A DNA stretch of 64,000 bases from Salinigranum marinum (GTDB taxonomy: Archaea; Halobacteriota; Halobacteria; Halobacteriales; Haloferacaceae): assembly GCF_024228675.1 (NCBI RefSeq), contig NZ_CP100462.1:372001-436000 (forward strand). Reading direction: 5' to 3'. The number at the start of each line of letters is the position of its first letter. Positions within the stretch are counted from its first letter, which is position 1. Below the pieces are notes generated by a model. The model did no database searches. It worked only from the letters and a program-made list of their open reading frames with translations, and was not told where the DNA came from. The translations under genes and the position numbers were made by a program. Below, piece by piece: positions 26,535-32,305 of this stretch.

Positions 26535-27929
26535 CATCGGTGTTCGGTTAAGCATTGGATCGCCTCATGAAGGCCTCAGCCACTCGTTCGCTGAGTAAGA
26601 GCCGCGATTTCTCTGGTTGGCGGGCGTCACGAAACATCAGCTCCGACAGATTCGGCGGTGGATGTCCGAGCGACTGTGCCAGATCTTCGAGGATGAGCTG
26701 GGCGAAAGACCGGAAGGTCTTCGCCCAGCGCTCACGGGGGAACACCGTCTCTGGAAACAGCTCTTGAAACACGCCGAGCAAGGCTCTGCTGACCGTCAGT
26801 GTCAGCAGAGCCGCCACCACCAACAGGTGGACGATCGCTGGATCACTCGTCTGGAACTTCTCCAGCCCATACAGCGACTTCAGTTCCCGGAACAGCAACT
26901 CCACTTCCCACCGCAACCCGTACAGGGCCGCGATCTGCCTCGGAGTGAACGCGTCGGGGAGATTTGTGACGTACAGATGGTAGTCGTCGGTGTCCTCGTT
27001 GCGGACACCGACGACGCGAACCTCCATCGAATCGGTTGACTCCTTCCCAGCGTATGCTCGCCGCTTGAACGAGATCTCCACGGTCACATCGATTATCTCC
27101 CGTGTGAGGTCACTCAGGACGTCCTGGAGGCGACGTCCTGGCAAGGAAATGGCGCGCCCGCGCCATTTCCGCCGTTCTCCGACGATCAACGGGTTCGCGT
27201 TCGACTTCAGCCGTGTCAGGAAGAACCCACCGTTTTCCTCGATCAACGCGAACCGACGGAAATTGTAGAACCCGAGATCGAACAGCACCAACCGGCCTCG
27301 CAGCCAGCTCCCCGTGCGGAGCTGGCTGCTCTCGTGGGTGCATTCGTCGGTGAGCTGGAACTGCTCGATCGTCTGTGTCGTCGCGTTATGGACGAGGTGA
27401 AGCTTCGCGCCGGACTGATCCGCGTGAGTCGCCGGAAACTCGCTGAGGAGCCGATGCAACCGGAAGACGGTTGCATCGGCGATCAACACCTCACGAAACA
27501 ACTCGAACTGGGGAGCGATCGTGTGGGGAACCGCGACCTCCTCGAGAGCGTGCTCGAGGAGGTCGCTCAACAGTGTCGCAAGTGCTGGTGTGAACCGGTC
27601 GTAAAAACTGGAGCGGGCAACAGTCTGGTTGGTCGCTGCGGAGTAAGCCCGCTGAAACCCGGCGATAGTGCGGGCTTCGCCGTCGACGGCGAAGCCCATG
27701 ATGAGCGTCCAGACGAGCATCGTGATGTCGATTGTCCGGTGGCGTTGGACGACATCGCGCTCGCGCGCGATGTCTTCGATAACCGCTGCTGGAAACAGGG
27801 AAGTGAGCCGCCGTCGTATGAGGTTCGGGGAGAGCGTCTTGAACACATTCTCTCCCCACGCGGTCTACATCGATAGCTTCGTCAGTGGAGCGCAGTCACC
27901 CGATTCAACGTCTTAACCGAACACGGATG
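26535..27929 (-). mobile_element. ISH8-type IS4-family insertion sequence
   Basis: The 1395-bp element has terminal inverted repeats CATCGGTGTTCGGTTAAG and CTTAACCGAACACGGATG. The flanks (GTCTGGAC left, GACTGTGG right) show no direct duplication, unlike the related element at 59769, so a rearrangement has probably removed one side. Perfect coding hairpins: 27533-27546/27553-27566 (14 bp), 27145-27155/27160-27170 (11 bp), a 26-bp palindrome at 27672-27697, and 26697-26706/26720-26729 (10 bp around an inner stem). Confidence 0.88.
26548..27846 (-). CDS. ISH8-type IS4-family transposase
   Basis: The 432-residue DDE transposase has an N-terminal domain (FPAAVIEDIARERDVV...), first Asp in EVLIADATVFRLHRLLSE, second Asp in LVLFDLGFYNFRRFALIEEN and a catalytic Glu in YGLRWEVELLFRELKSLYGLEKF, the Y-(2)-R-(3)-E-(6)-K signature of IS4. 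It is intact. It is a diverged relative of the transposase at 59782-61086; the two allow comparison of the hairpins in the gene. Confidence 0.92.
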   Translation of the reverse strand: MFKTLSPNLIRRRLTSLFPAAVIEDIARERDVVQRHRTIDITMLVWTLIMGFAVDGEARTIAGFQRAYSAATNQTVARSSFYDRFTPALATLLSDLLEHALEEVAVPHTIAPQFELFREVLIADATVFRLHRLLSEFPATHADQSGAKLHLVHNATTQTIEQFQLTDECTHESSQLRTGSWLRGRLVLFDLGFYNFRRFALIEENGGFFLTRLKSNANPLIVGERRKWRGRAISLPGRRLQDVLSDLTREIIDVTVEISFKRRAYAGKESTDSMEVRVVGVRNEDTDDYHLYVTNLPDAFTPRQIAALYGLRWEVELLFRELKSLYGLEKFQTSDPAIVHLLVVAALLTLTVSRALLGVFQELFPETVFPRERWAKTFRSFAQLILEDLAQSLGHPPPNLSELMFRDARQPEKSRLLLSERVAEAFMRRSNA

Positions 27930-28106
27930 GACTGTGGTGTCCAGATGGCGAAAACGGCGGTAACCGCCGAAGGAGTCGGCGACCTCTACGTTGAAACCGA
28001 TAGGGAAGGCAGTGTACTGGAACGCCTCGGCATCGGGTATCAGACGTCACTTTACGCGTTCCTTTGCCCGGAGTGTGGCCTGACAAAGCTGTATGCCGAC
28101 CTCTAA
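27927..28106 (+). CDS. small zinc-ribbon-like protein next to the ISH8 end
   Basis: The frame ends in ...GDLYVETDREGSVLERLGIGYQTSLYAFLCPECGLTKLYADL. The CPEC pair suggests half of a zinc ribbon or a redox CxxC. Two starts are possible: ATG 27927-27929, formed by the last three bases of the ISH8 element, or ATG 27945 (MAKTAVTAEGVG, 53 residues). Upstream protein sequence may have been lost at the insertion. It lies 15 bases before the RDD gene on the same strand. Confidence 0.45.
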   Translation: MDCGVQMAKTAVTAEGVGDLYVETDREGSVLERLGIGYQTSLYAFLCPECGLTKLYADL

Positions 28107-28121
28107 CACTCAAAGATCGAC

Positions 28122-28550
28122 ATGAAGAAACATCCGACCCCAAAACTCGGAACGAGCGGAGACGTGATCTGGCGCCGGGTACTCGCGTATATCATCGATT
28201 CGGTCCTCATGGGGCTGATCTGGGGTGTGACCGTGATCGCCGGGACGGCTCTCGGCGACACCGGGTCCATGTTGCTGGTGTTCGTGGGGCTTGTCGCAAC
28301 GGTGGTCTACGGATTTTTGCTCGAGGGCTTGTACGGGTACACGCCCGGGAAGTACCTGTTGAGGCTGGTCGTCGCCAAGTCGGATGGCTCCAACTGTACA
28401 GTCAGCGCGTCGATACTACGGAACCTGCTGTGGATCGTCGACGCACTCCCGACGGCGAATCTGGTTGCGATGGTGCTGATACTGGTTACCGACGACAACC
28501 AACGGGTCGGTGACCTCGTCGCAGACACAGTTGTCGTGAAACAACAGTAG
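28122..28550 (+). CDS. RDD-family membrane protein
   Basis: The 142-residue protein has the RDD pattern: GDVIWRRVLAYIIDSVLMGLIWG (the R and D of the family name in a short N-terminal motif), two or three hydrophobic helices, YGYTPGKYLLRLVVAKSDG (the conserved G-K-x-x-x-x-L-x-V loop), and the C-terminal TDDNQRVGDLVADTVVV (Q-R-x-x-D-x-x-A-x-T). The function of RDD proteins is unclear; some act as ion transporters. The frame is intact. Confidence 0.85.
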   Translation: MKKHPTPKLGTSGDVIWRRVLAYIIDSVLMGLIWGVTVIAGTALGDTGSMLLVFVGLVATVVYGFLLEGLYGYTPGKYLLRLVVAKSDGSNCTVSASILRNLLWIVDALPTANLVAMVLILVTDDNQRVGDLVADTVVVKQQ

Positions 28551-28581
28551 TCGAAGGCAGTCAGTGCTTGTGCGAACCTAC

Positions 28582-28657
28582 GCTAGTGTCGATTCAACGC
28601 TGAACTGCCATATACAACCGAGAGACGGTCTATAGCTGGAATCTAGCAGATCACGAC
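28582..28657. repeat. 76-bp inverted repeat, left arm
   Basis: This stretch is repeated in reverse complement at 29281-29356 with only a few mismatches over 76 bases (for example ATATACAACCGAGAGACG is shared). The pair encloses one DUF5518 membrane-protein gene on the minus strand, giving a 775-bp cassette. No clear target duplication flanks it. Confidence 0.8.
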
Positions 28658-28710
28658 CGAAGGCCCACTACCTTGAAATAGAGAGATGAGACCACTGAAG
28701 AGCCGTTCTA

Positions 28711-29145
28711 TTACGTCGTATCCACTGGTTTTGGATTGAGTTTCCCAGCGATCCACCCACCGAAGAAGCCGCCGAATACGCCGATTAGGGTCCCCAACAC
28801 ACCCACGAAAACGACAAGGATACACAGGAGCACAACTGCGAATACCTGCCCACCTTCCGAAGCCGACGTGATGAACCAGCTACGGAGAAAGTCAGACCAC
28901 CACGCAAAGGCAGGCACCGTTCCGAGGATGCCGGCACCCATACCAGCTCTTTTGAAATGACCCGATCCGTTCGCAGCGAGAAACCCCGCAAAACCACTGC
29001 CAATAATCACTCCTGAAAGGCTATAATACGACTCTGCACCAACGAACAGATTATGTACAGTCACCGCCAGAATGCCGATCACTCCGCCGAAAAGGGCATA
29101 TACATACGTTGGAGTATCCTCTTTGAGTACCCACTCTAACTGCAT
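28711..29145 (-). CDS. DUF5518-like membrane protein inside an inverted-repeat cassette
   Basis: The 144-residue protein has four hydrophobic helices with the glycine-rich pattern of haloarchaeal DUF5518: LFGGVIGILAVTVHNL, SLSGVIIGSGFAGFLAANGS, GMGAGILGTVPAFAWWS and LLCILVVFVGVLGTLIGVFGGFFGGWIAGKL. Function is unknown. I use ATG 29145. Similar genes occur at 39906 and 49603. This one sits between 76-bp inverted repeats, as if it were a movable cargo gene. Confidence 0.65.
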   Translation of the reverse strand: MQLEWVLKEDTPTYVYALFGGVIGILAVTVHNLFVGAESYYSLSGVIIGSGFAGFLAANGSGHFKRAGMGAGILGTVPAFAWWSDFLRSWFITSASEGGQVFAVVLLCILVVFVGVLGTLIGVFGGFFGGWIAGKLNPKPVDTT

Positions 29146-29280
29146 GTCGCCCAATTGACTGCAGAGACCGATATGGTCTCCGTTTAGTCAAATAGAATTT
29201 GAACCTTCGTCGGGTAGTGGCCACCACGTCTTGTCACTGTGAATCAACCGATGTGATGGCGTCTGTGTAGTGGGCGTTCA

Positions 29281-29356
29281 GTCGTGATCTGCTAGATTCC
29301 AGCTACAGACCGTCTCTCGGTTGTATATAGCAGTTCAGCGTTGAAGTGGCACTAGC
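29281..29356. repeat. 76-bp inverted repeat, right arm
   Basis: This is the reverse-complement partner of 28582-28657. The outer ends pair as GCTAGTG (28582) and CACTAGC (29350-29356). The arms have kept the same length exactly, which suggests a functional terminal repeat or a recent duplication. Confidence 0.8.
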
Positions 29357-29678
29357 CGATTCCCGATCAGAGCGTCAGAACCACCTATGGCCCGCATGAG
29401 AAGCCTACTGCTCCTGTCTCGTCATTCGTCGCTAGCCGCGACTAGTAGCAACGATAGAAGCCCCGAACGCAACTGGAAACAGTTAGCAAGCCCACACGTT
29501 CTATCGGGAGACTGTATGATGAGAAACAGAACGATACGCAACACTGAAACTGAGTGATTTCGCTCCTCTGAGTGGCCGTTCGGAGAAGAACTGGCCTAAG
29601 ATCACGACTACGAGGTACCAGCGTCCATATCGGTCGAAGACAGGCGACTGTATAGCAAGTGATGACTTACCAAGGCGA
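29357..29678. other. gap without a gene
   Basis: These 322 bases between the inverted-repeat cassette and the split DUF6159 gene hold no protein-like frame and no repeat that I can recognise. Confidence 0.4.
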
Positions 29679-30230
29679 CTATATCTTGCTGAAATCTATG
29701 TCGTCGAAGTATTCAGGAGCAGTGGTTCGGGTCGCGTAGACGTACAACGCAGTTCTGGCGATCCCACTGAGCGCCTTCCCGACGAGTAGGCCGACGCTGA
29801 CGGCAGTGACGCCAATCAGGAGGGTGGCTAACAGTTGGGCCGTCCCCAAGCCGGTTGTCACGACAAACGTGAGCCCTCCCAGAACGATGCCGACAAGCAC
29901 TAACAAGAGCGTCACCACATCGATCGTTCCCAACGCACCGATGGACTCACCCCAAGTGTCTTTGAACGTCTGTGCGCTCTGCTTGAACATCTCCGTGACC
30001 GACGGATCCCGGAAAACGATTACCGGGACGATGAAGAAAGTCATCACGCTCCACGCGACTGCGAAGATCCCGGCGACGATCTGGGCGACGATGTTGCTTT
30101 CACTTTCGACCAATCGAATGATGACGCCGAGGATTGCGGCCACGAGCGACCAGGCCAACAGCGGCAGTTTCCGTTGCCAGGCGTTAGCGAGTGCGCTCCG
30201 AATCGACGGCTCGTTACCGTTGAACACAGT

Positions 30231-31658
30231 CGGTAGTTCCCATCACGTCAGCTGATAGCTACGACTGTCGTGGTTAGATTCTCAGGAAGCGTCTGGATGG
30301 GTGTTGATGAAGTGTTTATACCATCCAGACACTGTTCTTACGGCCTCTGACCTTGAAATCTTAGCGGAAGGCCTCCTCGCAGAGCTACCGATACCCGGAG
30401 TCGAAGGCTGCGGCTTCGACTCCGGGATTATCCGACGGACGCTCCTCCAAGCAGCTGTTGACCAGACCTCGATCAAGGCGGTCACCGACAGCACTCGTGG
30501 AACCTACTCCGACGACTACACGCTTGCTCAGCTTCACACCATCCCACCTGAAGAACTCGAAGCCACCGTCAACCTCCTCCTCAGACAACAGGCGACGATG
30601 ATCCTCGGCCCCGGCCCGAGGATCATCTGTCTTGACTTCGTCGACGTCCACTACCACGGCTGTCCACACCACTCTCCCGGTGAACTCTGTCACACGACGC
30701 CCCGCGATGGCACCTCACAGTGCCATCGCTACCTCGCTGGATTCGTCCTCTGTCGGGCGAAACCACTCGTCGTCGCCGTCACTGCTGTTCGTGGAGACGA
30801 ACCAATAAGCGACGCGGTCGAGCGACTGCTCGACCACGTCGCGGCACTTCCCTTCGATGTCGCCAGTCTCCTCTGTGACCGCGGGTTCTACAACGGGGCG
30901 TGCATCCAGCGGTTGCGTGAGACTGCTCCGGTCGTTCTCCCGGTCATCCGACGCGGCCAACGGATGGCCGAGAAACTAGAGACGTCGATCTCCTACTGGA
31001 CGGAGTACACAATGTACGAGGGAAGCGAGCGGGAACTGCGCTTCCCGCTCGCTGTCTGTGTCTCCTACCGACAGGGCAAGCGGGGGAAGCACGGACTGCT
31101 TGTTCGTGCCTACATGGCGTGCGATCTGGCTGATCGCACGCCGAAGGAGGTTGAGGCTCTCTACCGGAAACGATCAGCCATCGAGACAGCCTTTCGAACC
31201 ATGCGCGAAGCGCGTGCACGCACAACCACGACCGACCCGGTCGTTCGGTTGGTGTTCGTGCTGGTGAGTTTCCTGTTGCGGAATCTGTGGCTGATCGTTC
31301 GCTGGGGCGTGCTCGCCACGCCGCGGCGCGGCGGGCGAGCACTACCCGTGTGGTTCCGCTTCGAGGTATTCCGAGCGTGGATCAACCACACGCTCGACGA
31401 ACTGCTACACCGGAAGTGGGAAGCACCGACCAACGGTGTGGGGATTCCCGCGACGTATGGTCAGCTGGACGCGGGCTGACCGAGCCCGCGTCCAGCGAGT
31501 GCCCCTGAAGAGCAGTTGCTAGGCATCGCCATCACATATTCGGCGCTCTCACTGACGTGAGACCGCCTTTCGCTGGCTATTGTCTCCGTACCGAGATCGA
31601 ACTTGTCGCTTCCGCCGTGGAAAATCAAGTCAGCGTGTAGAACCGATGGGAACTACCG
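30231..31658 (+). mobile_element. second ISH3-type insertion sequence (different subgroup)
   Basis: The 1428-bp element has inverted ends CGGTAGTTCCCATC and GATGGGAACTACCG and a perfect 5-bp duplication ACAGT (30226-30230 and 31659-31663). Transposase hairpins include 30394-30406/30414-30426 (13 bp), 30597-30608/30616-30627 (12 bp), 31024-31035/31042-31053 (12 bp), 31116-31126/31132-31142 (11 bp) and 31464-31477/31483-31496 (14 bp), the last covering the stop codon. Confidence 0.93.
30307..31479 (+). CDS. ISH3-type transposase
   Basis: The 390-residue transposase is a distant relative of the one at 4563-5753. Shared points are RIICLDFVDVHYHG (first Asp), VASLLCDRGFYNGACIQRL (second Asp), YRKRSAIETAFRTMREARARTTTTDPVVRL (catalytic Glu) and LATPRRGGRALPVW near the C-terminus. 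ATG 30307 gives MKCLYHPDTVL; a GTG at 30301 is also in frame. The frame is intact. Confidence 0.9.
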   Translation: MKCLYHPDTVLTASDLEILAEGLLAELPIPGVEGCGFDSGIIRRTLLQAAVDQTSIKAVTDSTRGTYSDDYTLAQLHTIPPEELEATVNLLLRQQATMILGPGPRIICLDFVDVHYHGCPHHSPGELCHTTPRDGTSQCHRYLAGFVLCRAKPLVVAVTAVRGDEPISDAVERLLDHVAALPFDVASLLCDRGFYNGACIQRLRETAPVVLPVIRRGQRMAEKLETSISYWTEYTMYEGSERELRFPLAVCVSYRQGKRGKHGLLVRAYMACDLADRTPKEVEALYRKRSAIETAFRTMREARARTTTTDPVVRLVFVLVSFLLRNLWLIVRWGVLATPRRGGRALPVWFRFEVFRAWINHTLDELLHRKWEAPTNGVGIPATYGQLDAG

Positions 31659-31933
31659 ACAGTCCTTGTCGCTGCGACCAGTGCCGCGGTGAAGAACGAC
31701 GCAACGAACGTCTCGAGAAGATACGCGACGAATAGCGTCGCATACATCGCCGGCCCGGGGCTTTGAAGAAACGGCCCCATGATGTAGAGACCTCCGAGCA
31801 GCGTCGCTATGAACGCGGCACCTGAGAACCCACCGAGCAGCGGGAACGCGAGAAGTTTCGGATGGGATCGCAGTACACGGCCACTTTCCCGTGCCATAGC
31901 GAACCCAATCTTGAGGCGACCGATCACTCCCAT

Positions 31934-32305
31934 ATCAGGATTCCGTGTCGCACAAAATAAGCGCTATTCGCTCTGTCTCCGAGCCAGATTCTAAGCGACA
32001 CTGGTATGAATTACCTTGTTTTGACGATGGGTGATCTTTTCTCGGAAACCTCGGCGAGATAATCCATCGATCTAATTGGAAAACGAATCTCTGTTGAAAT
32101 CCTCGGAGTCGGATATGAAATGTGTGCTCATAATCTGCCCGCGTCCACGGAGCCAAACTGAACTACGTAGCACCTCTCGAACGCGAGAAACCGGGTCACC
32201 AACCTTAGTGCAACACCCCGGCCAGATACGAAAAACGATCTCACTCGGTATCTGTGCCGGAGGATTCGCTTCGGGTGTTCGAGAAGCGGAGCCCTGCGGT
32301 GCCAG
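31934..32305. other. gap without a gene
   Basis: These 372 bases separate the split DUF6159 gene from the AIM24-like gene. Both flanking genes are on the minus strand, so it holds the DUF6159 promoter. No frame looks like protein. The first 130 bases are AT-richer, and the remainder may contain a terminator for the AIM24-like gene's neighbours. Confidence 0.4.

Follow-up and report, generated by a model that had tools for sequence, protein, structure and literature searches.

Within a 64,000-nucleotide stretch of Salinigranum marinum DNA (hereafter the window), one DUF5518-like gene is enclosed by two long arms in inverted orientation, and the question is whether the arms move the gene, flip it or do neither. 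A reading made from the sequence alone had offered two possibilities, a non-autonomous mobile cargo unit and an invertible segment. We consider it very probable that the feature is a composite non-autonomous transposon, in which two 83-bp MITEs of the IS630 (Tc1/mariner) type surround the DUF5518 gene and are moved with it as a unit. The evidence, read from genome sequences, comprises the dispersal of the arms, their TA/CTAG ends, insertion of the unit as a whole, a matching insertion sequence (IS), a MITE-less homologue of the cargo and two further composites with empty sites.

Structure of the unit and its cargo

The inverted arms at 28582-28671 (plus strand) and 29267-29356 (minus strand) are 90 nt each, 92% complementary without gaps and separated by a 595-nt spacer. 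A search of the window for a 38-nt piece from the core of the arm gave two mismatch-free sites, versus 0 expected from 100 shuffles. The sequence-only reading had placed the outer coordinates exactly, and the inverted repeats around one DUF5518-like gene, the GCTAGTG/CACTAGC ends and the lack of a transposase inside the unit (767 bp from MITE through gene to inverted MITE) were all confirmed. Its arm length of 76 bp fell short, the arms being 88-90 nt, and it overlooked that each arm is a near-palindromic, stand-alone dispersed element: each arm has both ends (TAGTG...CACTA), and an imperfect palindrome of about 83 bp (GTG...CAC) is flanked by TA. It had also called the arms far longer than typical MITE ends, which is explained by each arm being a whole MITE rather than a bare terminal repeat. 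The left and right MITEs are 92% identical in opposite orientations, and among 93 MITE copies compared they are each other's nearest relatives (92%; next best 85-89%). The features are listed in Table 1.

Table 1. Features of the composite unit and of its target locus, in window positions.
Feature	Position	Strand	Basis and remarks
RDD family gene, left flank just upstream of target	28122..28550	+	PF06271, E=3.2e-18; within 27929-28575, 91% DNA identity to G424
TA target duplication, left	28584..28585		Inside CTAG 28583-28586; empty sites G424, G263; TA at both ends in 58/70 copies elsewhere
Left MITE, outer end of unit	28586..28668	+	83 bp, GTG...CAC; same element solo in many haloarchaea
TA at left MITE inner end	28669..28670		Copy alignment; G355 cargo homologue starts here, reads GA
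Cargo segment between MITEs	28671..29267		28670-29270 is 78% identical to MITE-less G355 DNA; homology stops at inner MITE borders
DUF5518 small membrane protein gene	28711..29145	-	144 aa from probable ATG 29145 (TTG 29154 also possible; frame 28711-29154)
TA at right MITE inner end	29268..29269		G355 there, without MITE: TGTG-TA-GCC
Right MITE, outer end of unit	29270..29352	-	83 bp, inverted relative to left; solo copies elsewhere
TA target duplication, right	29353..29354		Inside CTAG 29352-29355; empty sites G424, G263
Right flank, contiguous with RDD-gene flank in empty relatives	29355..29380		27-nt match 29354-29380 in G424, 96%; G263

The cargo product matches PF17647 (E=1.1e-11, 45 bits versus a cut-off of 27). 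The homologous DNA of genome G355, in which the TA of the right inner border is retained (TGTGTAGCC), fits capture of a gene between two MITEs, and the inner TA of the left MITE is presumably a duplication left by that MITE's own earlier insertion beside the gene. Five further genomes have the cargo gene at 80-84% DNA identity, with no MITE in the stretch fetched. Comparison with six homologues gave dN/dS of 0.19-0.28, which points to purifying selection on the cargo, for the most part before it was captured. It is probably a functional passenger gene, not transposition machinery, and is likely expressed.

A dispersed MITE and its probable IS630-family partner

An arm unique in databases would, by the terms of the sequence-only reading, have told against it; the arm is instead widespread. 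Among 392 genomes sampled from the order, a model using sequence only found the MITE in 56, which represent 30 of 96 genera, with copies usually solitary; a family-level scan gave 27 of 170 genomes, and up to 9 copies were counted in one genome. A plasmid search retrieved the arm element in 11 haloarchaeal plasmid records from 8 genera, the matches being to arms alone and mostly single copies. No match to the arm was found in phage records, nor anything by a pattern scan of genome contigs; the pattern scan of viral contigs gave 12 matches.

Alignment of 12 copies revealed a near-constant length (88 columns) and a dyad symmetry in which TAGTG...TCA...TGA...TGCTA is mirrored. The flanks differ between most copies. 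Of 70 distinct near-full copies, 58 have TA at both ends, and the tetranucleotide met most often is CTAG, on the left (30) as on the right (36). Two solitary copies (L132 and L056) have TA-precise empty sites in relatives, with TA duplicated in the copies. Each arm thus shows the properties of a MITE: it is short and non-coding, has terminal inverted repeats, exists in multiple dispersed copies, is polymorphic for insertion with target duplication (L132, L056) and has ends in common with an autonomous element of the same genome, an IS630-family IS.

This IS emerged from a search of the S. marinum genome with the end motif, which retrieved, besides the window's own, three pairs of ends about 1.2 kb apart. 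Two of the three are identical 1224-bp IS (G000:C1:3496548-3497771 and G000:C2:288023-289246), whose ends are CTAGTGCCGCTTCARNNNTGAACTGCTAGA-like repeats at CTAG sites and which encode an HTH protein (HTH_23/HTH_32, PF13384/PF13565) and a DDE_3 protein (PF13358, E=2.3e-26). Both ends of this IS are hit by the MITE model, with E=4e-6 and 5e-4, and the similarity of arm to IS is confined to about 32-43 terminal bases. IS630/Tc1-mariner elements duplicate TA (ISY100, PMC2170065), and both marks of this family were found, TA duplication, preferably in CTAG, and, in the partner IS, a DDE_3 transposase with HTH domains. From the TA/CTAG at the ends and the IS630-type end match we conclude that the arms are 83-bp IS630-type MITEs. 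Judging from its ends, the 1224-bp IS would be the source of transposase for this unit and may still be active as such.

Since each arm is imperfectly palindromic and of near-constant length, we also considered an integron-like or regulatory palindrome (an attC-like site or a structured RNA) in place of a transposon end. The 20 predicted pairs are without compensatory base changes and no Rfam match was obtained, so that the arm looks like a DNA element, not an RNA; the left arm folds no better than shuffled DNA, the right arm better than most shuffles. The TA/CTAG duplication, the TA-precise insertion evident from empty sites and the match to IS630 ends explain the arm instead, which disposes of the integron-like cassette site suggested by the palindrome, and the chance that the arm is any such palindrome appears minute.

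Two other transposases were rejected as partners of the MITE. An IS701 transposase lies near a MITE copy in L006, and no matching ends are present near it; an IS630-type transposase located between two copies in L046 belongs to an IS that appears to have different ends (GTACCGTCCCAAG) and to adjoin the MITE. Separately, an A-rich run (CTAAAAAAAC or similar) divides the IS630-type transposase of three different elements (L147 1640-1730, L046 5333-5490 and L146 1790-1960) into two reading frames, a pattern that suggests programmed frameshifting.

Empty target sites

The window flanks were compared with genomes of the family in a search for empty sites. In G424, the left flank 27929-28575 (91% identity) is followed within 8 bases by the right flank of the window from 29354. 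The empty site there reads GTGCGATCTCCCCCAG directly joined to CCGATTCCGGATCAGAGCG, versus GTGCGAACCTACGCTAG...CTAGCCGATTCCCGATCAGAGCG in the window, and G263 is arranged likewise. Base by base, the window sequence GCGAACCTACGCTAG...CTAGCCGATTCC corresponds to GCGATCTCCCCCAGCCGATTCC in G424 and to GCGACCCACCCCAGCCGACTCC in the more diverged G263. No remnant of a MITE or of the DUF5518 gene was found at the RDD locus in either genome. The empty sites therefore indicate a single insertion of the whole 767-bp unit at CTAG, in the course of which the TA now found at either outer end was duplicated. Together with the dispersed arm and the matching IS630-type IS of the same genome, they support the mobile cargo unit proposed earlier. 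G424 and G263 both come from a single other genus and have CCAG, not CTAG, at the target, so that the polarity of insertion rests on parsimony and on the duplicated TA. The exact composite is known from one copy only.

Single MITE insertions do occur, and two of them could have landed independently around a resident DUF5518 gene that the relatives then lost by deletion. In both G424 and G263 such a deletion would need endpoints precisely at the outer TA borders, homologous recombination between inverted repeats does not delete the intervening DNA, and a second composite, described below, is absent with equal precision from four relatives. We therefore hold this scenario to be highly improbable.

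Recombination between long inverted arms is possible in principle, and an invertible switch, in which recombination between the 88-bp arms would reverse the DUF5518 gene with respect to promoters outside, was the other proposal of the sequence-only reading. It found no support here: only DUF5518 is encoded between the arms, with no site-specific recombinase; the arms are accounted for as two MITEs, whose common form is the solo copy; and the one assembly with the unit has it in one orientation, with no inverted isomer found. We give this reading almost no credence.

As a composite transposon, the unit most likely arose in the following way. Two copies of the 83-bp MITE would first have come to flank a resident DUF5518 gene. 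A resident IS would then have provided an IS630-type transposase in trans; this enzyme would have recognised the outward ends of the MITE pair and moved the 767-bp unit by cut and paste into the TA of a CTAG beside the RDD-family gene, with duplication of the TA. The order of events, MITEs first and movement of the unit after, is what we infer from these comparisons, and cut and paste is assumed for this unit by analogy with ISY100 (PMC2170065).

The surroundings of the target may have a history of their own. Window segments 27929-28575 and 29566-31987 lie on the 437-kb second contig and share 71-91% identity with pieces of a chromosome from the other genus (G424, g14), so that the target locus, too, may be of horizontal origin. 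Nearby, at 30220-31660, is an IS that encodes a DDE_Tnp_1 transposase (30301-31479) and is bounded by GGTAGTTCCCATC/GATGGGAACTACC; it interrupts a DUF6159 membrane-protein gene (halves 29679-30227 and 31625-31933) that is uninterrupted in G424 (L117).

Further composites and related systems

A second composite was found in G445 (L127 2789-4104), where inverted MITEs, 93% alike, surround a gene for a different, 155-aa product. This 1316-bp unit is wholly absent in four relatives, with empty sites at GGCCTG-CTAG in G367, G394 and G024 and at CTAA in G202: the first three read GGCCTGCTAG and the fourth GGCCTGCTAA, versus GGCCTGCTAG...CTAGTCTTTT in L127. The DUF5518 unit and L127 thus both have what defines a composite, namely two copies of one element around unrelated cargo and insertion of the whole as one with outer target duplication (empty sites in G424 and G263 for the former and in the four relatives for the latter). 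A third composite, in G260 (L052), is a decayed inverted pair around a 148-aa gene; it is absent in G284, and its right end is degenerate.

The second composite bears on another explanation, that of a mobile insertion cassette, in which DUF5518 replaced the transposase gene of a single IS630 derivative that merely happens to have 88-bp terminal repeats. The overall form, with terminal inverted repeats, one passenger gene and no transposase, would be alike, as would insertion as a unit. Four observations speak against it: either arm is a complete MITE that has both of its ends and an inner TA; similarity between the cargo and the G355 DNA, which has no MITE, breaks off where the MITEs begin; only some 32-43 terminal bases are shared between arm and IS; and L127 repeats the structure with different cargo. 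We regard the cassette as improbable, and the composite of two MITEs as the preferred reading.

MITE pairs within 2 kb were observed 11 times versus 0.12 expected under uniform placement, a count in which the pair shared by L051 and L053 enters twice and from which two full IS were set aside by hand. Local hopping or plasmid clustering could explain part of the excess, and all these points lessen the weight of the figure. It would also be explained by a haloarchaeal gene-shuttling route, in which IS630-type MITE pairs recurrently pick up single genes and spread them as small composites; we put this forward tentatively, as a possibility that we rather doubt. If it is true, the shuttled genes would include those for a membrane protein, a Zn-ribbon-like protein, a SnoaL-like cyclase, a phosphoesterase-like protein and others.

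Pairs in direct orientation also surround single genes (L045 4349-5389, L128 4044-4988, L131 2147-4103 and L048 3958-5620). Their cargo is a SnoaL-like cyclase in L045, a phosphoesterase-like protein in L128 and unnamed in the others; L045 and L128 have CTAG at both outer ends. No empty site was found for any of the four (for L045, L128 and L131, none spanning the junction), and we list them as candidate composites. A 1.29-kb block (L051 1560-2846 and L053 3939-5224) is 90% identical between genomes of two families and has weak MITE-like matches at both ends. It was rejected as proof of cassette movement, since the 90% identity continues past the MITEs and marks a shared region; its 321-aa protein has no Pfam match and was not accepted as a transposase.

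Among the closest known parallels is TIME-COMP, composites of Tn3-derived miniature elements that moved passenger genes experimentally in Pseudomonas (PMC4133298). There too, two miniature non-autonomous elements, in inverted or direct orientation, flank passenger genes without transposition genes, and the unit moves with target duplication. Unlike our case, TIME-COMP has Tn3-family ends and 5-bp duplications, resides in bacteria and was captured in movement; here the ends are of IS630 type, TA is duplicated, the host is an archaeon and movement is deduced from genomes. With a TA duplication and IS630-type ends instead of the 38-bp ends and 5-bp duplication of a TIME, the unit works like TIME-COMP and is not a TIME member.

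Other systems are comparable as well. The title of Tenzen and Ohtsubo (1991), as cited in PMC2170065, describes an IS630-associated composite transposon at TA in CTAG; like ISY100, it shares with our unit the IS630/Tc1-mariner family and the duplicated TA target, and by that title the CTAG preference, but full insertion sequences or purified transposase were involved there, whereas here 83-bp MITEs form the ends and no transposase is carried. Haloquadratum walsbyi MITEs (PMC3119063) are likewise short, for the most part do not code for protein and have ends that resemble those of a transposon in the same host; the text of that paper does not mention IS630, and its passages on these MITEs showed no gene-carrying pair. 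The unit also works like the Acinetobacter integrons flanked by MITEs, as summarised in PMC6382973, which have passenger genes bounded by MITEs but are bacterial and involve other families. Mobile insertion cassettes (PMC5444012) hold passenger genes in inverted repeats without transposase; they too are bacterial and of other families, and have simple terminal repeats in place of whole MITEs. A 2024 review (PMC10969869) lists MITEs of archaea and, for bacteria, genes mobilised by MITEs. No account of a haloarchaeal MITE composite that carries a gene turned up in a limited keyword search of open-licence literature.

Movement of single genes by MITE pairs is thus known in bacteria and little documented in archaea. 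The mechanism is ordinary and the novelty modest, lying mainly in the archaeal, IS630-type case. What is gained is a set of base-resolved natural examples of archaeal single genes moved by enzyme-less transposon pairs, with a likely source of the enzyme in the same cell, and a searchable 88-bp model for finding such haloarchaeal units, which would otherwise pass for odd inverted repeats.

A separate observation concerns copies of the MITE in six genomes from different families (L062 4088-4174, L070 3861-3947, L078 4062-4148, L081 4063-4148, L083 4070-4156 and L084 4067-4153), all with nearly the same flanks (CACGAAAAAATAGTGCC...CACTAGTCTCTACCGAT). In L070, L078, L081, L083 and L084 the element marks the beginning of a gene for a phosphate transporter (PHO4), which it overlaps in some gene calls. 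It is possibly a conserved insertion, perhaps adopted as a promoter, or part of a horizontally shared gene.
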